Shown in pieces: positions 18,591 through 34,933 of a stretch of 64,000 nt of DNA (the first letter of the stretch is position 1; every line of letters begins with the position of its first letter). A model generated the notes under the pieces. That model was given only the letters and a program-made list of their open reading frames with translations. It searched no databases and was not told the DNA's origin. The stretch covers positions 30,744 to 94,743 of the forward strand of contig CAJWEV010000005.1 of assembly GCA_913031575.1 (NCBI GenBank). Direction: 5' to 3'. This DNA comes from an uncultured Halieaceae bacterium. Its GTDB lineage: Bacteria; Pseudomonadota; Gammaproteobacteria; Pseudomonadales; Halieaceae. The position numbers were made by a program, and so were the translations under genes.

Positions 18591-18814
18591 GGAGCGCTAC
18601 TCGATAGAGTGTCAACGGAGTGTAACAGTAACTGTCTCACAAGCCTGTCCCCAGTAAATTAAATGAGCAAAAAGCACTTTGCGTATTAACTAATTACACT
18701 TAATTTTAATATTAATAATAAAAACAATAAGTTAAGTACTATTTCGATCGGGCTATACCATTGAAATACTTTGAGCTAGAATCGTTCAACCACTCTAATA
18801 ACGGAAAGATCCCT

Positions 18815-21670
18815 ATGTTTCTTACCAAACAGTTTGGCAAGCGTCCTCTGTCGCTCGCCGTGGCTGCTGCTATTGCACCGGCCTTTGCGTCCACAGCACT
18901 CGCGCAAAATCCTCAGCTTGAGGAGGTCGTAGTTACTGCGACGAAGCGTGCTGAAAACCTTCAGGATGTTCCGGTCTCGGTTAATGCTCTATCCGGTGAC
19001 GCGATGCGATCGCAGAACATCCTGACTTTCGACGACTACGTTGAATTCTTACCAAATGTCGTTAGCGCGGGTATCGGTCCAGGTCAACGAGAAATCTATA
19101 TTCGCGGCTCAGCATCTGAGCAATCATCTATTACAGTTGCGCCGGCTCAGGGCTCAGCACCTGGCGTGGCACTTTATTTTGATGAAATGCCTGTTTCGTT
19201 CGGCGCGAGGAATCTTGATGTATATGCAGCAGACTTAGCGCGAATCGAGGTGTTATCTGGCCCACAGGGGACTCTATTTGGTGCCAGTTCGCAGTCCGGA
19301 AATATGCGCTTAATCACTAATAAGCCCAACCCTGATGAATTCGAAATGAGTCTGGATATGGGCCTTAGCTCGACACGAGGTGGTGCAAACAGTAATAGCC
19401 TTGAGGCAATGATCAACGTCCCTATGGGCGAGCAAGGCGCAGTTCGCTTCGTAGCTTACTCAGATAACCAAGGCGGATGGATCGACAATCAAGTGGGTAC
19501 GTTCACGCCGAGCGGAACGGTTATCGACAGAAACAATTCGGCTGGCTATGGGCCATTTTTTGGCTCTTTCGATCAAACAACCATCCAATCTGCAACGAAC
19601 GGTAATGTTGCCAAAAAGGATTGGAACGAGGCTACATACGATGGTTTCCGTGTTGCTGCGAGCTACGACTTCAACGACACGTGGAGTGGCCTAGTTACGC
19701 ATATGTCGCAGGAGATTGATGTAGACGGCTCCTTCCTTATCGACCCAAGCTTGGGTGACAGTAGTGCTCAGAAATACGTGCCGGAATCAAACATTGATGA
19801 GTTCGATATCACAACATGGACGCTGGAAGGTGCTATAGCAAACCTAGACGTCGTTTATACCGGTGGTTATATTGATCGAGAGGTCGATGCGCTGATTGAC
19901 TACACGCACTACAACAATGGTGGCGGTTACATCACCTACTACCTCTGTAGTGGAAATATCTACTCAGCTGATCCATCGACCGCTCGTAATACGTGCTTTG
20001 ACCCCACAAAGCAGTACGCCGACGTATCAACGAATGAGCGAACGACTCACGAGCTGCGAATAAGCAGTGACCCTGACAACCGTCTCCGTTGGATGGCGGG
20101 CGTTTACATGAGTGATGTTGATACGACGCACGTAGGGGAGTTCCAATATTTCTCCACTAACGACGCGTTCAGTGAGCATATCGTGAACTACTTCGGCTCG
20201 GGTGCTCCTTTCCAGGTTGGCAATACAACCATTCCGGGTACCGCAGGCACCAACACAACCGGACCGCGAAGCCCACTCACTACGTTCTATAATGACTTCA
20301 CTCGTACAGAGGAAGAGACGGCTTTCTTCGGTGAAGTTGCCTTTGATATCAGTGACGATCTAACCGTGTCGCTAAGCGCGCGACGCTACGATCTAAAGTC
20401 GCAGCTACAGGGTGCGTCTAATTTCTCGTTCGGTTGTCGTTATGGTGCACCATTCACTGATCGAGAGACGCCCGCGGGAGCAGGCTTTGGCAACGCACTG
20501 GTTACAGAGGACGGTCGCTGTAACAGCAACGCCTTCAGTAACGACGTGACTGCACGCCTTTTAACTCTTGGCGCCTATGGCGCTTCAGGTGATGACAGCA
20601 TTATCTTGGGTGCGACGAGTCCAAACGGTGCGCGTGACATGTTCCGTGGTGGTGGTAGTAACGCCGCAACGCTCGCTGCCATACAAAACGGCAACCTTGA
20701 CATTAGTGATGTCTCTGCTGACGGTTCGACAGAAGAAGAGGACACTATTGTTCGTTTATCAATGAACTACAATCTGTCAGACGATGTAATGGTCTACGGT
20801 ATCTATTCCGAGGGCTATCGTCCAGCAACTCAGAACCGTAACGCCGGTCAGCTCGCCGCAAATCAATCCGGGGTTTATGAGGGATATGTGGTTCCAGCCG
20901 TGGCCGTTACAGACACATTGGAGAACATTGAGTTCGGCATGAAGGGCGAGTTCCTCGATCGCACACTGCGATTGAATGCTAGTTACTACATGACGGAGAT
21001 CACAGACCTGCAAGTTTCACGTTTTGACCCTTCAAATGTGGCCTTCTTGGTCTTTATGGAGAATGTGGGAGACGCTGAATCAAACGGTGTTGATCTTGAT
21101 TTCCAGTGGGCCGCAGGAACAAATCTGCTGATCTCGGGCGCTGCCAGTTTCTTGGATACCGAGATCACTCGACTAAATCCACAGCTTCAAGGCGTGGCAG
21201 TGCCCGTTGGCTCTGAGCTTCCACTCGCACCCACCTTCTCGGGTAACTTGCGAGTACGCTATGACTTCGATACGGACTGGTACGGTATGGACGGCTACCT
21301 TACTGGTGCCATAACATACCGTGGTAAGTCGGTTGCAGGGATCGTCGGAAGCGCAGCATTCATGGACGATACGGCAGTCCTTGCCTACGGGAGTGAATCT
21401 GGCCTAGATCAGCAAGATGAAGGTGGAAACTTCGGAACCGTCAACGATTCAACTGGTGCACTGCCCGCAAACTCACGTTACGTTAACGAGGCTGCGACAA
21501 CACTCAACTTTAGTGCAGGCCTCACCAAAGACGCGTGGTTAGCTGAAGTCTATGTTCGCAACCTTACGAATACGCGGGGCGCCGTAGTTCAAACAGCGGG
21601 TAAGTTTACGCCCGAGGCAACTGTCAACCGACCTCGAACAATGGGAATCAGACTGTCTTACCGCTTCTGA
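18815..21670 (+). CDS. TonB-dependent receptor (TBDR1)
   Basis: Signal peptide from ATG 18815, LEEVVVTATKR TonB box, plug RIEVLSGPQGTLFGASSQSGNMRLITNKP, ends MGIRLSYRF. Confidence 0.93.
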   Translation: MFLTKQFGKRPLSLAVAAAIAPAFASTALAQNPQLEEVVVTATKRAENLQDVPVSVNALSGDAMRSQNILTFDDYVEFLPNVVSAGIGPGQREIYIRGSASEQSSITVAPAQGSAPGVALYFDEMPVSFGARNLDVYAADLARIEVLSGPQGTLFGASSQSGNMRLITNKPNPDEFEMSLDMGLSSTRGGANSNSLEAMINVPMGEQGAVRFVAYSDNQGGWIDNQVGTFTPSGTVIDRNNSAGYGPFFGSFDQTTIQSATNGNVAKKDWNEATYDGFRVAASYDFNDTWSGLVTHMSQEIDVDGSFLIDPSLGDSSAQKYVPESNIDEFDITTWTLEGAIANLDVVYTGGYIDREVDALIDYTHYNNGGGYITYYLCSGNIYSADPSTARNTCFDPTKQYADVSTNERTTHELRISSDPDNRLRWMAGVYMSDVDTTHVGEFQYFSTNDAFSEHIVNYFGSGAPFQVGNTTIPGTAGTNTTGPRSPLTTFYNDFTRTEEETAFFGEVAFDISDDLTVSLSARRYDLKSQLQGASNFSFGCRYGAPFTDRETPAGAGFGNALVTEDGRCNSNAFSNDVTARLLTLGAYGASGDDSIILGATSPNGARDMFRGGGSNAATLAAIQNGNLDISDVSADGSTEEEDTIVRLSMNYNLSDDVMVYGIYSEGYRPATQNRNAGQLAANQSGVYEGYVVPAVAVTDTLENIEFGMKGEFLDRTLRLNASYYMTEITDLQVSRFDPSNVAFLVFMENVGDAESNGVDLDFQWAAGTNLLISGAASFLDTEITRLNPQLQGVAVPVGSELPLAPTFSGNLRVRYDFDTDWYGMDGYLTGAITYRGKSVAGIVGSAAFMDDTAVLAYGSESGLDQQDEGGNFGTVNDSTGALPANSRYVNEAATTLNFSAGLTKDAWLAEVYVRNLTNTRGAVVQTAGKFTPEATVNRPRTMGIRLSYRF

Positions 21671-21757: not shown

Positions 21758-23755
21758 GTGATAGAAGAATCAATTCAAAAAGCACGGATTGCCATAGGAA
21801 ATGGCGCATTCGACGAGTCGAGGCATCTGCTCGATAGTGTCCTTGACTCCGAACCAGATCACTTCGAGGCACGGTATACCCTCGCTGTCCTTTTGCGTGC
21901 ACAAAAACAGCAAAAAGAGGCAAAGCAACTATTGACGGTATTACTTCAAGAGAAGCCGGATTTCGGGAGAGGCTTTCAAGAGCTAGCACTTTGTGAGCTG
22001 AGTCTCGGTAGTGAAGGTTCAGCGATTAAAGCATTTGAAAAAGCAGTAGAGTTTGACGCCTCGCTTCTAGAAAGCTGGCGATTTTTAGTCGCCGCCTATG
22101 AGCGTAAAAACGACAGCCGTCTCGCGCAAGCCACTCACCAATTAGAATTCTTAAAATCACTCCCAAATGAGCTTCGGACAGTCATTAGTTATCTCGCTAG
22201 CAACCGGATAGCGGATGCAGAGCGGCTCTGCCGATATTTCATGCAACAAAATAAAACGCACATTGAAGGCATGCGCCTGATGGCTGAAATTGCTACTCGC
22301 ACCGGCGTTTTTGATGACGCGGAATTCTTATTAGAGACAGCATTAAAGTTAAAGCCGACGCATATCGAGGCAGAGATACAACTTACTCATGTATTACTCC
22401 GTCGACAGCGTTTTCATAAGGCCTACGATCACGCCAAAGCACTCTACGAAAAACATGAGTTCCCTTCACCCCAGGTCCTCGCTCTTTATGCCTCGGTCTG
22501 CTTCGGTGTAGGAGAGATTGATGAAGCGATTGGTGTTTATCAGCAGATGATCGAAGCCGCACCTGACGACCCGGCGCTTAAAGTATCGTTGGCACATATA
22601 TACAACGCGACTGGTGAATCATCACTTGCCATCAACCTTTTCCAAGAGGCGCATAAAATAAAACCCAGTTTTGGTGATGCATTTTGGAGTCTGGCAAATA
22701 CGAAGTCGTATCGTTTTACTGCCGCCGAAATCGACTCCATGATGTCCGGACTAGACGATAAAAGCGTATCCAAACTAGATAAAATTCAGATTCATTTTGC
22801 GCTCGGTAAAGCAGAGGAAGATAAAGGCGAGTATGCAGCTTCGTTTGAGAACTACCGGCGTGGCAATGCCCTGAAGCTGGAGACTTCAAATCACAGCAGA
22901 GAGCAGCTGGATATCCGTATCTCTTCGCAAATAGAGATCTGCACGAAATCCCTATTCGAACGTCTCAAGAACGTGGGTCATGATGCGCCTGATCCCATCT
23001 TCGTAGTAGGTTTGCCGCGCGCCGGATCGACATTACTTGAGCAAATTCTTGCCTCCCACTCTAAGGTGGACGGCACCATGGAACTGCACGATATTTTGGA
23101 TCTGGCAAAGCGCTTGCGCGGTCGAGACAAAGCCGGTGATCCAAGCCCACGTTACCCTCGCATTTTAGGCGAACTACCAGAGTCGCGCTTTGACAAATTT
23201 GGGAAGCAATTTATCGAAGATACGCGGATCTACAGAGGATCAGCACCCTTCTTCATAGACAAAATGCCCAATAACTTTTTCCACGTTGGACTCATAAAAC
23301 TCATCCTACCCAATGCGAAGGTAATTGATGCGCGACGACACCCAATGGCTTGCTGCTTCAGCGGTTACAAGCAGTTATTTGGCGAGGGACAGGAGTTCTC
23401 TTACGGGCTGGAGGAGATTGGAAACTATTACAAGCAGTACGTCGATCTAATGAACCACTGGGATGACGTTCTGCCGGGCTTTGTCTTGAGAGTTCAGCAT
23501 GAGGACGTCATCAAAGATCTCGAGACTCAGGTACGTCGTATTCTCGACTTTTGTGGGCTCGATTTTGAAGAGCCCTGCGTAGAGTTTCACAAGACAAAAC
23601 GCACTGTAAGAACACCCAGTGCAGAACAAGTGCGCCGGCCCATCAACACATCAGGAGTCGACCAATGGCGCAACTTTGAAGAGCACCTCGACCCACTCAA
23701 GCACGCTCTGGGCCCCAAACTGCTGGACGCCTATGGGATAGACCCTCCCAAATGA
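21758..23755 (+). CDS. TPR-repeat sulfotransferase (TPR-ST1)
   Basis: Many TPR units, then VVGLPRAGSTLLEQILASHSKVDG (PAPS 5'-phosphosulfate loop) and RRHPMACCFSGYKQLF (3'-phosphate motif). Confidence 0.88.
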   Translation: MIEESIQKARIAIGNGAFDESRHLLDSVLDSEPDHFEARYTLAVLLRAQKQQKEAKQLLTVLLQEKPDFGRGFQELALCELSLGSEGSAIKAFEKAVEFDASLLESWRFLVAAYERKNDSRLAQATHQLEFLKSLPNELRTVISYLASNRIADAERLCRYFMQQNKTHIEGMRLMAEIATRTGVFDDAEFLLETALKLKPTHIEAEIQLTHVLLRRQRFHKAYDHAKALYEKHEFPSPQVLALYASVCFGVGEIDEAIGVYQQMIEAAPDDPALKVSLAHIYNATGESSLAINLFQEAHKIKPSFGDAFWSLANTKSYRFTAAEIDSMMSGLDDKSVSKLDKIQIHFALGKAEEDKGEYAASFENYRRGNALKLETSNHSREQLDIRISSQIEICTKSLFERLKNVGHDAPDPIFVVGLPRAGSTLLEQILASHSKVDGTMELHDILDLAKRLRGRDKAGDPSPRYPRILGELPESRFDKFGKQFIEDTRIYRGSAPFFIDKMPNNFFHVGLIKLILPNAKVIDARRHPMACCFSGYKQLFGEGQEFSYGLEEIGNYYKQYVDLMNHWDDVLPGFVLRVQHEDVIKDLETQVRRILDFCGLDFEEPCVEFHKTKRTVRTPSAEQVRRPINTSGVDQWRNFEEHLDPLKHALGPKLLDAYGIDPPK

Positions 23756-24378
23756 TCTTTTCCTCCAGCAAGAAATTTATCTTTTTTGCAGTCCCGAAAA
23801 CCGGCACCCATGCGGTTAGAGAGGTGTTGCGGCCTCTGATGACTAGCGGAGACTGGGAGCAACAAATGTTAACTGGGCGCATGCGTTCACCTATTCCAGA
23901 GCTAGCTAAAATTGGCCACGGTCATATTTCCTATCAGCAACTTACCCGCGCTATTGGGCAGGACGAAATAACGAACTACTTCAGTTTTGCGATCGTTCGT
24001 CATCCAATCGAGCGCTTTATGTCAGTGTGCGCCTTCCTCGCTCGAACAGATCAAAGCTATGTTGATGATCCCGTGAGGTGGGCCAAACGTGCCTTTGGAT
24101 TTGAGCGCTTTCGTCAACGCATTCTGGTGCGTCCACAATCCGAATTACTCATCAACGAGCGCGGCGAACTCGCGGTTTCTTTTATAGGTCGATATGAGTT
24201 ACTGGAGAAAGATTTAAGCGTGATATGTGAGCAACTTGGAGCCCCTCACCCTCAGCTAAAACGAAGAAACGTAACGCCAAACAAAAAGCCCGAAATCTAC
24301 ACTGATAGCGACTTCGTAAGCGAGTTAGCGGCGTTTTACAGCGCCGACTTTAGTTTGCTGGGCTACGACCGGAGCTGA
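23752..24378 (+). CDS. Sulfotransferase-family protein (ST2)
   Basis: AVPKTGTHAVREVLRPL and FAIVRHPIERFMSV PAPS-binding motifs; ATGA overlap with TPR-ST1. Confidence 0.82.
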   Translation: MIFSSSKKFIFFAVPKTGTHAVREVLRPLMTSGDWEQQMLTGRMRSPIPELAKIGHGHISYQQLTRAIGQDEITNYFSFAIVRHPIERFMSVCAFLARTDQSYVDDPVRWAKRAFGFERFRQRILVRPQSELLINERGELAVSFIGRYELLEKDLSVICEQLGAPHPQLKRRNVTPNKKPEIYTDSDFVSELAAFYSADFSLLGYDRS

Positions 24379-25318
24379 ACTCTACAACACGCCGCGGGCG
24401 CAAAGCTGCGGCAAGAATACGTTGGTTTATAATGGGGTTAATACCCACCTGGTTCGACGAAGTCACCAGTACGCGCGGGTCCGGTGCCAACTGAGCAGCT
24501 GTTCGTTCAATAACGCCTCTGTAGAGCGGAAACGCTGATTCACTGAATCCATGTAAGCTCCATATCTCTCGCCAGTCATGGACTAAGTCGAACAGCAGAT
24601 GCCTGTATCGAAGCATCATGCCTCGATCATTCGCTATATTTGCTTCACAGTCCCGCAGCACTTGCTCGACGATCGCCAACATTTCTCCAGGCGACATCAC
24701 GGGAGCCACAGGGAACTGCTCTGTACGAAGTTCAGGTGCTAATTGCAGGTCGAATTTAATGTCTACGGGTGCTGAGTTATTTGCCGATCGCACAATACGC
24801 CAAAATCGAGATGAACCGGCAAGATCTATTACTAAGTGCACCCGCGATAGGTTACTGTCGTTCGTCACTCGGTGGCGACGCCAGGAATCGAACAACCAGC
24901 TTTGACCAACCGCCATATGCACCGACTCGCCTCCACAATAAAAAATGACAGAGGGGTCCGTCACTATAGGCACGTGAATGCGAACTCGGCTGACCCAATG
25001 ATAGTTAAAATCCACGTGCTCAGCGACTTGCGCGCCTGGCGCTAAACGCATAAGCCGCGATCTCGCCACGACCTCACCAAATGATGCGACGGTCTGATGC
25101 AAATAGGGACTTTCGCGAAGTGCTCGTGTTGCCTGCATCGCACCGTCAAACGCATGGTTCATTTCACCGTTGACTGAAACCAGTGGCACGGCCGAATTAC
25201 CCGGCAGTCCTGACGGGTGATCGAGCCAGAAATCCTGAGGTAAGGCTTCAACTTCACGCGCAAGCAACTGGCTATCAAAGCGCCAGGGTAGCTGAAGAAA
25301 AGGCTGATTAAATTCCAT
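24350..25318 (-). CDS. Aspartyl/asparaginyl beta-hydroxylase-family dioxygenase
   Basis: EHVDFNYHWVSRVRIHVPI...QSWLFDSWRRHRVTNDSNLSRVHLVIDL; ORF track extends to 25405 but MEFNQPFLQLPWRF at 25318 is the likelier start. Confidence 0.8.
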   Translation of the reverse strand: MEFNQPFLQLPWRFDSQLLAREVEALPQDFWLDHPSGLPGNSAVPLVSVNGEMNHAFDGAMQATRALRESPYLHQTVASFGEVVARSRLMRLAPGAQVAEHVDFNYHWVSRVRIHVPIVTDPSVIFYCGGESVHMAVGQSWLFDSWRRHRVTNDSNLSRVHLVIDLAGSSRFWRIVRSANNSAPVDIKFDLQLAPELRTEQFPVAPVMSPGEMLAIVEQVLRDCEANIANDRGMMLRYRHLLFDLVHDWREIWSLHGFSESAFPLYRGVIERTAAQLAPDPRVLVTSSNQVGINPIINQRILAAALRPRRVVEFSSGRSPAN

Positions 25319-25427
25319 GCCGGCATTACGCCATAAAGCCAAAGAAGATGACAGGCTGCATCCAATTTCAATTGAATGCTTAGGGCTCAAAGCATAAACT
25401 TGCACGCCTTCGAGGACGACGACAACT

Positions 25428-30040: not shown

Positions 30041-30868
30041 ATGTCCAAACTCACAGCCATTACATCCGATTTTGCCAGAGCCATCGAGCATCTGGGTACA
30101 GAACATTTTGTCCCTGCTATCGCAGATGTATTGTGTGGCTTTGTCAATGCTGACGACGCCACCGTCATCGTCTACGGTCACGAGGAACTGCCGACCATTA
30201 GCTTCGCAAGGCCGCTGGCCGGGAAGGAAGAAAGCTCTCTCGCCACTTATCTCACTGGACCCTTTTTATTGGACCCGTTCTACCGTGCGGCGGCCTACGA
30301 TCATCAGTTTGGTGTTTTTCGTCTTGCAGATCTCGCGCCCGCGAGTTTCCGGAGTTCAGAGTATTACAAGAACTGGTACAAACACTGTGGCTATGAGGAC
30401 GAATGCGGGCTACTCATTCGTCTTGCCAACGAAAACTTTATCAATATCTCCATTGGTCTGACCTCCGAAGGGGCCCGCTTCAGAATTGGGCAGGCGAAAT
30501 TACTCACTAGCATTTACGAGCTGACGGCCTCGCTCTGCCGCCGACACTTCCTAGAAATATTGGAAGCACAAAAGAAAACGACGCTTCGCGAGCGCATGCA
30601 TCGATCGCTTGCAGCATTTGGTGCGAGTGTGCTCACCCGTCGAGAACGGCAGGTGGTCGAACTGGTCTTACTCGGCCATAACACCCGATTAATTGCAGAA
30701 AAACTCGGCATCTCGATTGAAACGGTAAAACTGCATCGAAAACATGCTTACGCCAAATTGGATATCAGTTCGCAGGCAGAGCTTTTCTTCCTATTCATGG
30801 AAGCACTATCTCACTGGTCCGGCGATCCTGACACCGACCCGCTAATTGCCTATCAAGGTGGTCGGTAA
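30041..30868 (+). CDS. LuxR-type HTH regulator with GAF-like N-terminal domain
   Basis: LTRRERQVVELVLLGHNTRLIAEKLGISIETVKLHRKHAYAKLDISSQAELF. Confidence 0.9.
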   Translation: MSKLTAITSDFARAIEHLGTEHFVPAIADVLCGFVNADDATVIVYGHEELPTISFARPLAGKEESSLATYLTGPFLLDPFYRAAAYDHQFGVFRLADLAPASFRSSEYYKNWYKHCGYEDECGLLIRLANENFINISIGLTSEGARFRIGQAKLLTSIYELTASLCRRHFLEILEAQKKTTLRERMHRSLAAFGASVLTRRERQVVELVLLGHNTRLIAEKLGISIETVKLHRKHAYAKLDISSQAELFFLFMEALSHWSGDPDTDPLIAYQGGR

Positions 30869-30870
30869 CC

Positions 30871-32433
30871 ATGACTGAACTCTCTCTAGCCGATGGCTTT
30901 GCGGCGCTAAATCGCGGCGATCTCGCCACCGCTGGCGAAGCATGCAAACAGGCATTGGAAGCCGATAAAAAGCTTGTCCCCGCTCATTTCCTAGTGGGCC
31001 TCGTAGCTCTGGAAGGCAAACAGCGACAGGTCGCCCATGAGGCATTTAAATCGGTCGTAACGCTCGACCGCGACCACGCGGCAGCCTGGGCTCACCTTGC
31101 AAAACTCAATGTGGGTGAAGGCAGAATCGCAGCTGCTGAATCGGCACTACGCGAAGTCAGAAGAATTCAACCGAACGACCCTGTAGTAATAGAGCTTACC
31201 GGCACGGTACTTAATTCATTGGGAGAATATGAAGCCGCGGAGCTGTTGTTTGAGCGTGCGCATCAGATGGTACCCAATAACTCGTCTGCATTGATGAATT
31301 TAGGGAACGTGAGAGTCTTCTTAGGGAAAATTGATAATGCGGTCGCCCTTTTTAGGGAGGCGATTTTGTTGGAACCCGATAGTGCTCAGTGCCACTGGGG
31401 GCTTGCCAATTCTGAAAAAGCAAAAGACGACACTCACATTAAGACCATGCAGGGATTAATTGATTCAGGAAGACAATCAAAGAGGTCGCAAGGGTTCTTG
31501 CATTACGCCATAGGCAAAGAAAATGAAGATTTAGGCAACTGGGCTGATGCCTTCGCAGCCTTTACTAAAGGCGCACAGGCCCGACGGGAGACCGTAGAGT
31601 TCAACGAAGCGGATGAAATTGCGATGTTCGAGGCAATCAAGTCAACCTACACAGCCGACTGGCTGACGACTCGACCACCGGGTATACCCGATCCATCGCC
31701 CATTTTCGTTCTCGGCCAACCTCGCACCGGTACGACACTCATTGAGCGCGTAATTACCAGTCACTCAAAAGTCCTCTCGGCGGGCGAGCTGCAACAATTT
31801 GGACTCGCTGTTCGCCGTGCGGCTCGGCATAACGAGCCAAAGCGCTTTTCACGAGACCTTTTTTTAAAAGCAGCTGATATCAATCCTTCGAAGATCGGCG
31901 AAATGTACCTTAAGGCTACCGCTAAACAACGGGCCAAAAAACCCTTCTTCGTAGATAAGCTCCCTGTCAACTATCTCACGTTACCACTCATTCTTGCGGC
32001 ACTTCCCAATGCGAAAATAGTTCACCTTGTAAGGGGGCCCATGGATGCCTGCTTCGCTAGCTTCAAGCAGCTATTTGCTGATGCTTATCTCCACAGCTAC
32101 GATCAAGGAGAGATGGCGCGGCACCATGCACGATACCGCGATCTCATGGCGCACTTCCATTGCGAGTTCCCAGGCAAAATCATCGACGTGAGTTACGAGG
32201 ACACCGCACGGGAACTTGAACCCAACGCAAGAAAATTGATTGCCGCATTAGGAATCGATTGGGAGGACGCATGTCTAAACTTCCATAAGAGCAGCGCAGG
32301 TGTCGCCACAGCGAGTTCAGTGCAGGTCAGAGAGCCCGCACACACACGATCAATCGGGCGGTGGCGTCGATATGAGACCGACCTCGCTCCCATGGTAAAT
32401 GAGCTTCACCGTTTGGGGGTTCCCTTAGATTAG
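30871..32433 (+). CDS. TPR-repeat sulfotransferase (TPR-ST3)
   Basis: TPR units then FVLGQPRTGTTLIERVITSHSKVLSAGEL and HLVRGPMDACFASFKQLFADAY; 2 bp after the LuxR gene. Confidence 0.88.
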   Translation: MTELSLADGFAALNRGDLATAGEACKQALEADKKLVPAHFLVGLVALEGKQRQVAHEAFKSVVTLDRDHAAAWAHLAKLNVGEGRIAAAESALREVRRIQPNDPVVIELTGTVLNSLGEYEAAELLFERAHQMVPNNSSALMNLGNVRVFLGKIDNAVALFREAILLEPDSAQCHWGLANSEKAKDDTHIKTMQGLIDSGRQSKRSQGFLHYAIGKENEDLGNWADAFAAFTKGAQARRETVEFNEADEIAMFEAIKSTYTADWLTTRPPGIPDPSPIFVLGQPRTGTTLIERVITSHSKVLSAGELQQFGLAVRRAARHNEPKRFSRDLFLKAADINPSKIGEMYLKATAKQRAKKPFFVDKLPVNYLTLPLILAALPNAKIVHLVRGPMDACFASFKQLFADAYLHSYDQGEMARHHARYRDLMAHFHCEFPGKIIDVSYEDTARELEPNARKLIAALGIDWEDACLNFHKSSAGVATASSVQVREPAHTRSIGRWRRYETDLAPMVNELHRLGVPLD

Positions 32434-32539
32434 CGCCGGAGTATACTTAACGCTAAGCAAACGAAGCTTGAGACTTTTACACAAAAATAATGAGCAGATT
32501 TTGATAAATCACTGCTCTGCGCCACTCGAGGAAATCACT

Positions 32540-34933
32540 ATGTCGAACGTTTTTGAGACGAAAAACAGGGCTAAACTTGCACTACCATTAGCTGTGTCGG
32601 CAGCGCTCATAAGCACGGGCCCGGCGGTTGCACAAACACTAGAAGAAGTTATTGTTGTGGCCACTAAACGAGAGCAGGGGGTCATGGATGTACCTCTAGC
32701 GATTACAGCGCTGTCGGGTAACTTTATTGAAGAGACAAATCTCAACGATGTTAAAGACCTGATTTCCTATACCCCAGGCGTGAGCGGAAACTCGCAAGAC
32801 AGCTACATCGACGCGGTAAGCATCCGAGGTGTTCGAACACAGGACTTTGGTGTCGGTGGTGATCCATCATCGGCCTTTTTCAAGAACGACCTCTATGAAG
32901 GTCGAAATGGTTCAGCTGTAACGAGCCTATTCGACGTTGAGCGCGCTGAGATCCTTAGAGGACCCCAGGGCTTTCTGTTTGGACGTAACTCGATTGGCGG
33001 TGCATTTAGCGTCCACACTCGCAAAGCAGAAATAGGGTCGAGCGATGCCTTTATCGACTTCGACTTTGGGCAGCGAGAGCATGCTGTATTTGAAGGTGCT
33101 ATCAATATTCCGATAAGTGATAGTTTTGCAATGCGTCTAGCGGGGTACGGGTCACACGAGGACGGCTTCGCAGAGAATGTTTTCTCCGGCAACGATGAAA
33201 TCAACCACACGAAAAAGGCAATCCGCTGGTCGACCCGCTATGAGTCTGATGCACTCTCTATCGATACGGTTGTCGACTGGGAAGATCGGAAACAGTCCGG
33301 ATCGATGTATCGCGCGATTGATAGCGGCGATATCTGGGACGCACTTGATGGTTACATTGTAGATGAGACAGCTATCGGCGGTAACGATAAGCAAATTGAC
33401 TCAGATCTTGAGGGTGGCGATGCCGACGTCGGCGATCTAATGACCGTTGGGGTATTTGTAGAGTACGACTTGGGGTTCGCAACACTAAACTCAAATACGG
33501 GCTATAAAGACCATGACTACTATTATTCTGAGGATTACGATGGCACCTCACTGAATATCAACAATTTCCAGTTCGACCAGTCGGGACAATACTTTCAGCA
33601 GGAACTGCGACTCACAAGTAATGGCGATGGGCCTCTTAACTGGTATACCGGTATCTCATATTATGACGAGGACCTCGACGCTGAGTTCGCTGCGATAGGC
33701 TCTGAGGACCTGATGTGCCAATATTATCTTAACTATTACGCTGAGACTTACGGCTATGAGTTCTACAGCGGTTGCTCTGACTACTACAGTGATTTTTATC
33801 CCAGCTCCGACGGTAACCTTGTCGAGACTGGAATGCTTAAGGGTAAGTACACAGGGTGGGCGACTTACGTCAACCTAGACTATCAGGTCACCGATGATCT
33901 TATAGCGTCAGCGGGAGTACGCTACACCAAAGATGACAAAGACTTTTCCATCTTAGTGCCCGAGCCAGACAGTTACTTAGGTCCATATTTTACCTATGGA
34001 TTTGCGACTGCCGAGTACATTCAAGACTCAAAGTCGTGGAACGACACAACGGCGCGACTGGCCCTTACTTGGACGCCCAACGATGACGCAATGTTCTTTG
34101 CAAACTACACGCAAGGCTTCAAGTCGGGTGGTTTTGGTAGTTTCTGGATTGAAAATGCCCAAGGTGTGCCGCCAGAGGTGGCTCAAACAGGCATTACACA
34201 AGCAGATGGTTTCCGCCCAGGAACATTCAAACCGGAGCAGATGGACTCCTACGAAATTGGCTTCAAAACTAGCTATCTCGATGGAGCTGGTAATTTCGAT
34301 CTCACGGCGTTCGTTTATGACTACACTGACGCGCAAGTAATTCAATACGTTGATGTGGGTGATACTTTCTCTGCCAGGGTTTTAAACGCCGGTAAAACTG
34401 ACGGAATGGGTTTTGAAGCATCGACTACAGTTGCTATGAGCGATTACACAACACTTTATGTATCGATGGGCTATCTGAATACCGACGTTACCGGCTTAGG
34501 AGATCCAGATCTCGACGATGGCGTCAACGAATCCCTCTGCAGTATCGACGTAGATCAAGAGGGTGATGGAAGAGGCTGTGAGGGAAGTCGAATATTTTGG
34601 GCCCCGAAAGTAACGGGCGCTGCGAAAGTCGATATCAATGTGCCTGTAGACAACGGAACGATTGCTACCAGTTTCGAGGTATCTTACGAAAGTGAGCGTG
34701 GCGGTGCTTGGGAAGGCAATCGCGAGGGCATTATAGGATCATACGCGGTAGCAAACTTTCGCGTAGGCTACGAGTCAGACAACAATTGGTACGTTCAGAT
34801 CTACGCTGAAAACTTAACCAATGAGTTCACATGGGACGGTTATAACGCTAATGGTGGCATCATACCCTCTCACTTCTTTGGTCCAATGCGCCCAAGGACA
34901 GTTGGAATACGCACGGGTATGAATTGGGACTGA
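32540..34933 (+). CDS. TonB-dependent receptor (TBDR2)
   Basis: Signal peptide from ATG 32540, LEEVIVVATKREQG, EILRGPQGFLFGRNSIGGAFSVHTRKAE; ends GIRTGMNWD. Confidence 0.92.
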   Translation: MSNVFETKNRAKLALPLAVSAALISTGPAVAQTLEEVIVVATKREQGVMDVPLAITALSGNFIEETNLNDVKDLISYTPGVSGNSQDSYIDAVSIRGVRTQDFGVGGDPSSAFFKNDLYEGRNGSAVTSLFDVERAEILRGPQGFLFGRNSIGGAFSVHTRKAEIGSSDAFIDFDFGQREHAVFEGAINIPISDSFAMRLAGYGSHEDGFAENVFSGNDEINHTKKAIRWSTRYESDALSIDTVVDWEDRKQSGSMYRAIDSGDIWDALDGYIVDETAIGGNDKQIDSDLEGGDADVGDLMTVGVFVEYDLGFATLNSNTGYKDHDYYYSEDYDGTSLNINNFQFDQSGQYFQQELRLTSNGDGPLNWYTGISYYDEDLDAEFAAIGSEDLMCQYYLNYYAETYGYEFYSGCSDYYSDFYPSSDGNLVETGMLKGKYTGWATYVNLDYQVTDDLIASAGVRYTKDDKDFSILVPEPDSYLGPYFTYGFATAEYIQDSKSWNDTTARLALTWTPNDDAMFFANYTQGFKSGGFGSFWIENAQGVPPEVAQTGITQADGFRPGTFKPEQMDSYEIGFKTSYLDGAGNFDLTAFVYDYTDAQVIQYVDVGDTFSARVLNAGKTDGMGFEASTTVAMSDYTTLYVSMGYLNTDVTGLGDPDLDDGVNESLCSIDVDQEGDGRGCEGSRIFWAPKVTGAAKVDINVPVDNGTIATSFEVSYESERGGAWEGNREGIIGSYAVANFRVGYESDNNWYVQIYAENLTNEFTWDGYNANGGIIPSHFFGPMRPRTVGIRTGMNWD

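Follow-up and report, generated by a model that had tools for sequence, protein, structure and literature searches.

The window analysed here, a stretch of 64,000 nucleotides from an uncultured Halieaceae bacterium, contains a set of three closely spaced genes on the same strand. They encode a LuxR-family regulator, a protein composed of a TPR superhelix and a Sulfotransfer_3 domain (TPR-ST3) and a TonB-dependent receptor (TBDR2). Wherever phmmer gave a strong match in a related locus, a luxR homologue precedes the TPR-ST3-type gene by 0-4 bp. Neither a RaxX-like small precursor nor a peptidase-type ABC exporter was seen in the TPR-ST3/TBDR2 operon, where the neighbours are the LuxR regulator and the TBDR. 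Residues of TBDR2 are counted from the ATG at 32540, its likely start (the ORF tool begins at the TTG at 32468). Coordinates of these genes, of a second receptor locus in the window and of comparable features elsewhere are collected in Table 1.

Table 1. Features discussed in the text, given as feature, position (in the window, or in the locus named before the colon), strand, and evidence or remark.
LuxR-family (GerE HTH) regulator	30041..30868	+	Pfam GerE 3.6e-14; first gene of the set
TPR-ST3	30871..32433	+	Pfam Sulfotransfer_3 1.9e-42 and TPRs; TPR superhelix and Sulfotransfer_3 domain
TBDR2, TonB-dependent receptor	32540..34933	+	Pfam Plug 7.8e-15, TonB_dep_Rec barrel 2.4e-26
DHDYYYSEDYDG	33509..33544	+	TBDR2 residues 324-335; end of strand 7 and predicted extracellular loop 4
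EDLMCQYYLNYYAETYGYEFYSGCSDYYSDFYPSSDG	33704..33814	+	TBDR2 residues 389-425; predicted extracellular loop 5, candidate sulfation segment
TBDR1, receptor with a TPR-ST partner	18761..21670	+	at most 6 Tyr in 27 residues, in an early loop
TPR-ST (TPR and Sulfotransfer_3) adjoining TBDR1	21758..23755	+	Pfam 9.2e-49
Sulfotransfer_2 protein, 208 residues	23752-24378	+	2.9e-13; directly 3' of the TPR-ST of TBDR1
Aspartyl/asparaginyl beta-hydroxylase (PF05118)	24350-25405	-	Pfam family
PF05118 beside TPR-ST/TBDR pairs, further examples	L026:1216-1839, L028:1141-1698, L046:5617-6201, L047:3916-4590
Members of the ~306-residue family	L026:5635-6552 (-), L028:1702-2643, L052:11809-12759, L068:11918-12853
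SAR86-cluster receptors with the densest loops	L053:1-1284, L108:4866-7232, L063:3753-6080

TBDR2 has everything we required of a TonB-dependent receptor, that is a Plug domain, a 22-strand barrel and a signal peptide, on the combined evidence of Pfam, the structural model and folds in the PDB (the signal peptide was judged by eye). The AlphaFold2 model, built on an alignment of 46 sequences, consists of a plug and a 22-strand barrel (pLDDT 83, pTM 0.84). It places the Tyr-dense segment 389-425 between strands 366-388 and 426-449, and loop 4 (333-341) between strands 314-332 and 342-360. Sidedness of the loops was obtained from the number of strands and from the short turns on the periplasmic side (311-313, 361-365), and by this count the segment 389-425 is extracellular loop 5. 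The confidence within the loop, which includes a predicted helix at 389-404, is only modest (pLDDT about 50-70). The sequence-only reading from which this analysis started named a membrane-strand or periplasmic location as its own refutation; since the segment is predicted by the model to be an extracellular loop, the claim held.

That reading had singled out DHDYYYSEDYDG and EDLMCQYYLNYYAETYGYEFYSGCSDYYSDFYPSSDG as acidic, Tyr-dense segments of TBDR2 and proposed them as substrates of TPR-ST3. Both peptides and their coordinates proved exact to the base and in frame. The count of 10 Tyr in 27 residues is correct for QYYLNYYAETYGYEFYSGCSDYYSDFY, which in addition has no Lys or Arg, and the two cysteines are present as Cys393 and Cys412; the disulfide by which they would cap the loop remains inferred. 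The word "acidic" was justified only in part, because acidity is moderate (7 Asp/Glu in the 37 residues of the loop), and the near-absence of Lys/Arg is the stronger signal.

In the simplest case, such a segment would be a chance low-complexity run of Tyr without function. Extracellular loops of TBDRs vary quickly and are often rich in aromatic residues, which favours this explanation. It is nevertheless contradicted by shuffles, by conservation and by the control TBDRs presented below, to the point of being very unlikely. Only 3 of 20,000 composition-preserving shuffles of TBDR2 reached 10 Tyr in 27 residues (shuffle mean 5.5). Among eight close homologues (66-90% identity), Tyr residues of the loop are 97% identical versus 84% for its other residues, and two of the eight carry a 10-residue insertion that adds further Tyr. 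In the distant partner receptors of HTCC2207 and MOLA455, 8 Tyr are preserved together with the two Cys, and the counterpart of DHDYYYSEDYDG is kept there as NYYYLEDFDG.

TPR-ST3 has no signal peptide that we could see in its sequence. Its AlphaFold2 model (pLDDT 91) is matched by Foldseek to the TPR superhelix of OGT (1w3b) and to TPST1/2, TPSTs being its best sulfotransferase matches. By sequence, the TPR half matches the TPRs of OGT at 1e-23, which satisfies our demand for an OGT-homologous superhelix; binding of peptides by it is inferred. As a search profile we used the sulfotransferase domain alone (A5), and a profile of full-length TPR-STs (A1) was dropped after it drew in unrelated TPR proteins. 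When the catalytic-domain profile was compared with the PDB, TPST1 (9e-16), tick TPST (4e-15) and TPST2 came out as the main relatives, and the same search returned CurM (4gbm, 1.4e-13) and SULT (1e-3). By these matches the domain is nearer to the TPSTs than to SULTs or to enzymes that sulfate carbohydrates.

TPSTs operate with a 5'-PSB Arg, a catalytic Glu, a conserved Lys and a 3' Ser. We looked for a counterpart of each in TPR-ST3 and all four were found, namely R285, E306, K363 and S482, every one of them invariant in 39 homologues. With motifs named as in PMC9372746, GQPRTGTT (containing R285) aligns with VPRSGTT of TPST1, the motif for the 5'-phosphosulfate of PAPS, and E306 aligns in HMMER with the second Glu of GEETR, the catalytic base of TPSTs. 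K363 (in DKLP) corresponds to the conserved Lys of the TPST NKDP or (D/N)K(x)P region, and S482 (in TASSVQVREP) to the Ser of the 3'-phosphate motif STDQVxKP. The TPST-like fold and the conservation of catalytic residues are thus shown. The genome also harbors an APS kinase gene, found as two pieces at contig ends.

The pairing of the two genes is shown as well. A TBDR lies within 3.5 kb of 117 of the 123 TPR-STs that had enough flanking DNA or for which a TBDR was found. We also sampled 398 genomes of the phylum, scoring only two TBDR candidates in each. Of the 41 TBDRs that match the partner profile strongly (>=600 bits), 40 adjoin a core TPR-ST (>=417 bits), and both kinds of gene occur in one and the same set of 34 genomes. 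The one exception, L284 (genome G387), has the nearest TPR-ST of its genome about 9 kb away. Like L244, it is an orphan TBDR belonging to the partner clade, and these two keep 5-6 Tyr. TPR-STs in clusters without TBDR and without Tyr-rich neighbour occur in L258, L260 and L263.

Several side observations concern the limits of this linkage. Genome G144 contains, on different contigs, the partner-clade TBDR without adjacent sulfotransferase (L244) and a core TPR-ST without TBDR (L245), possibly the halves of a split pair. The more divergent TPR-STs (L258, L260 and L263 together with L139 and L143) come in groups of at least two, mostly without adjacent TBDR or Tyr-rich neighbour, and the wider TPR-ST family must therefore have other substrates. 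Further, two TBDRs of another clade (L130:7519-10455 and L132:7688-10597), situated 79-84 bp from a different sulfotransferase of ~465 residues, have no Tyr cluster (maximum 4 in 27).

If the receptors are substrates, their Tyr density should depend on the neighbouring gene; the sequence-only reading held that equal density in TBDRs with and without an adjacent TPR-ST would refute it. The genome (a MAG, 79% complete) contains five Sulfotransfer_3 genes, all of them TPR-STs and all beside a TBDR, and 20 TBDRs in total. The maximum number of Tyr per 27 residues is 10, 11, 9, 9 and 6 in the five partner receptors and 3-6 in the other 15. Across genomes, in a sample of 80 named loci around TPR-ST relatives and stretches from further relatives, the maximum has a median of 7 among 107 partner TBDRs and of 4 among the 102 others (p about 1e-28). 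A density of 7 or more Tyr in 27 is reached by 63/102 neighbours of TPR-STs and 1/101 other TBDRs, of 8 or more by 43/102 and 0/101, and of 7 or more within the loop region by 65/112 and 0/105, respectively. Partners are thus far denser and the claim held. Gene-level p values, however, ignore shared ancestry, and because only about 6 independent contrasts are available, they overstate the evidence.

The clusters are specific to Tyr. Their composition is Y 22%, D 10.6%, F 4.0%, R 2.5%, K 0.6% and W 0.3%, which makes them Asp-enriched and depleted of basic residues. Partner and other TBDRs differ in Tyr (p=1e-28) but not in Phe (p=0.28), and no other amino acid tested is comparable, with no change in Ser or Asn and only slight differences in Thr and Asp. 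Partner TBDRs do show a slight enrichment of Trp at some place in the protein (p=4e-4), yet the cluster itself is depleted of it. The densest stretch falls at 0.37-0.52 of the protein in partners (5-95%), whereas in others it may be anywhere (0.16-0.96), and partner loops differ in length and sequence while remaining Tyr-rich. Asp or Glu precedes just 18% of the cluster Tyr (position -1), and many Tyr are not directly beside an acidic residue. A strict acidic-flank consensus is consequently too strong a description; Tyr density without Lys/Arg is the clearer one. The densest loops we saw, with 13-16 Tyr in 27 (e.g. YTYDYTQYVYYYGYDYYAAYYYDYDYY), belong to partner receptors of the SAR86 cluster.

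A different explanation of the same gene pairs remains possible. TPR-STs might sulfate a small molecule or polysaccharide (siderophore, surface glycan or signal) that is imported or sensed by the TBDR, the Tyr loop being an unmodified ligand site. TBDRs import ligands, and genes in their neighbourhood often act on the ligand. The match of CurM-type small-molecule sulfotransferases to our profile, the slight enrichment of Trp in partner TBDRs and the existence of TPR-STs without TBDR or Tyr-rich neighbour speak for it as well. Against it, the cluster consists almost purely of Tyr, Phe staying at its background level and Trp being depleted. A generic aromatic ligand-binding surface is therefore disfavoured, and depletion of Lys/Arg is the opposite of what a binder of a sulfated (anionic) ligand would need. 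Furthermore, TPSTs are closest among the solved structures, the TPR half is similar to that of OGT, which modifies proteins, and the loops stay Tyr-rich despite their variation.

Another objection is that a Tyr-rich lineage of TBDRs just happens to be co-inherited with TPR-STs, without any functional link to Tyr. In its favour, 92 of the 107 partner TBDRs fall into one clade and phylogeny-aware contrasts are few. We consider it unlikely for the following reasons. Receptors of that clade are only about 30% identical, yet Tyr-dense. TBDR2 belongs to a separate clade with 11 relatives (8-12 Tyr), nested among TBDRs that have no sulfotransferase and possess 2-5 Tyr (one has 6). As its clade differs from that of most partners, the pairing and the Tyr loop arose at least twice. 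The HTCC2207 and MOLA455 receptors, members of the TBDR2 clade, are paired with a different TPR-ST subfamily and their Tyr loops are still present. In a third group, L266 and L267 have 8-9 Tyr beside a divergent TPR-ST, and their relatives without sulfotransferase 2-4.

The third group also includes less favourable cases. Close relatives of L266 and L267 that do have a sulfotransferase (L246, L248, L268, L269, L281 and L283) contain only 3-4 Tyr in the region; here a divergent TPR-ST subgroup adjoins TBDRs without a dense Tyr cluster. Another relative, L285, has 6 Tyr. The loops of L246 and L248 keep an acid-flanked EYSYE, and its weight as evidence is undecided. For the contrasts, one neighbour of L127 was recoded as not sulfotransferase-adjacent, because it is a second TBDR that lies farther out than the true partner. 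Of the about 6 independent contrasts, 2.5 are concordant and 0 discordant at threshold 5, the remaining 3.5 showing no difference. With the threshold at 6, about 1.7 are concordant and 1.0 discordant. There are no contrasts against the association at two of three thresholds, and with at most 6 contrasts the phylogeny-corrected test has low power.

Additional enzymes accompany some of the pairs. The TBDR1 locus contains two different sulfotransferases, the TPR-ST and the Sulfotransfer_2 protein. Genes of the PF05118 family were found in 23 of 139 TPR-ST loci versus 2 weak matches in 101 other loci, and their product may possibly be a second protein-modifying enzyme acting on the same receptors. 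One might go further and suppose that modification concerns residues other than Tyr or is a work of several enzymes (e.g. with Asp/Asn beta-hydroxylation by PF05118 proteins), TPR-ST doing only a part. The distribution of PF05118 supports such an account; nevertheless, Tyr is overwhelmingly the enriched residue, Ser and Asn being unchanged and Thr and Asp only slightly shifted, and we find this account highly improbable. A family of ~306 residues (starting ..VVRGSxQGESHGGxYLIDL..) adjoins TPR-ST and TBDR in 18 loci and occurs in 0 loci without TPR-ST; no relative of it was found in Pfam, NCBIfam or PDB.

We suggest that TPR-ST acts in the cytoplasm as a TPST-like protein-tyrosine sulfotransferase, which sulfates the surface loop of its partner receptor before export. 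This is inferred without any biochemistry, and we lean towards it rather than regard it as established. The proposal of the sequence-only reading, sulfation of the TBDR2 Tyr segments by TPR-ST3, is thereby supported as a hypothesis, sulfation itself being inferred. A possible course of events is as follows. The TPR superhelix would bind unfolded TBDR2, or a loop of it, as the TPRs of OGT bind their substrates. The TPST-like domain would then move sulfate from PAPS to several Tyr of the future extracellular loop 5, possibly also of loop 4; Tyr as the acceptor is an inference. This would take place in the cytoplasm, where PAPS is present, ahead of export, and the timing is again inferred, with a precedent in RaxST, which sulfates in the cytoplasm before secretion (PMC9372746). 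TBDR2 would next be exported by Sec/BAM and its putatively disulfide-capped sulfotyrosine loop displayed on the cell surface, where it may change ligand capture or recognition of the receptor. Every such surface function is inferred, the options being ligand capture, specificity and hiding of the receptor. The same scheme may extend to TPR-ST/TBDR pairs of Alpha- and Gammaproteobacteria.

A bolder reading, which we would at present rather doubt than accept, is that Proteobacteria possess a widespread, undescribed system of outer-membrane modification. Dedicated TPR-fused sulfotransferases would put multiple sulfotyrosines on one extracellular TBDR loop, joined at some loci by an Asp/Asn beta-hydroxylase and by a third family of unknown function, and would so tune the specificity for ligands or the way in which phages and bacteriocins recognise the receptor.

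Many Proteobacteria, then, pair a receptor with a Tyr-packed loop with a TPST-like enzyme, which suggests sulfation of their own receptors, a process almost unknown in bacteria. The review PMC9372746 describes only the RaxST/RaxX pair of Xanthomonas as bacterial tyrosine sulfation. According to an unpublished observation that it mentions, genes for extracytoplasmic proteins are frequent neighbours of bacterial TPST genes; this remark fits the TPR-ST/TBDR pairs, but does not describe them. We found no earlier description of a TPR-sulfotransferase with TonB receptors in the literature searched, most subscription journals being outside its scope. What is new here is the TPR-fused architecture and the candidate class of substrates, whereas TPST-like chemistry is known (cf. 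RaxST). If TPR-STs do sulfate receptor loops, Tyr sulfation would be common among Alpha- and Gammaproteobacteria of marine and freshwater habitats, and would affect proteins that determine both uptake by the cell and the phages or toxins able to bind it. A large unassigned enzyme family would receive a function, the almost fixed link of TPR-ST and TBDR would be explained, and a supply of modular bacterial tyrosine sulfotransferases would become available. The hypothesis is directly testable, and cultivated hosts include Caulobacter, Sphingomonas, Colwellia, Alteromonas and HTCC2207.

Both partners can be compared with known systems. The nearest solved folds to TBDR2 are the siderophore receptors FyuA, PiuA, Fiu and FhuA (Foldseek; FyuA 7.7e-41). 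FyuA shares the plug and 22-strand barrel (TM-score 0.70-0.87), but receptors of this type are only 15-16% identical to TBDR2, which is set apart by its Tyr-dense loop 5 with the presumed Cys-Cys cap. TPST1 and TPST2 (PDB 5WRI, 5WRJ, 3AP1-3) share the catalytic domain and its motifs with TPR-ST3 at ~20% identity, although TPR-ST3 has no Golgi anchor and carries an N-terminal TPR superhelix instead. The putative substrate context differs as well: candidate loops for TPR-STs, whose activity is inferred, are Tyr-dense and basic-depleted, but not strictly DY as for TPSTs. In OGT and SPINDLY, a TPR superhelix is fused to a protein-modifying transferase as in TPR-ST3; their transferase domain is, however, unrelated and uses a sugar donor, whereas TPR-ST3 would use sulfate from PAPS. 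RaxST of Xanthomonas is a bacterial, cytoplasmic, TPST-like enzyme that acts on RaxX before export (PMC9372746). Its description includes no TPR half, and its substrate is a small secreted peptide, while the candidate substrate of TPR-ST3 is a large, Sec-exported outer-membrane receptor encoded in the same operon.
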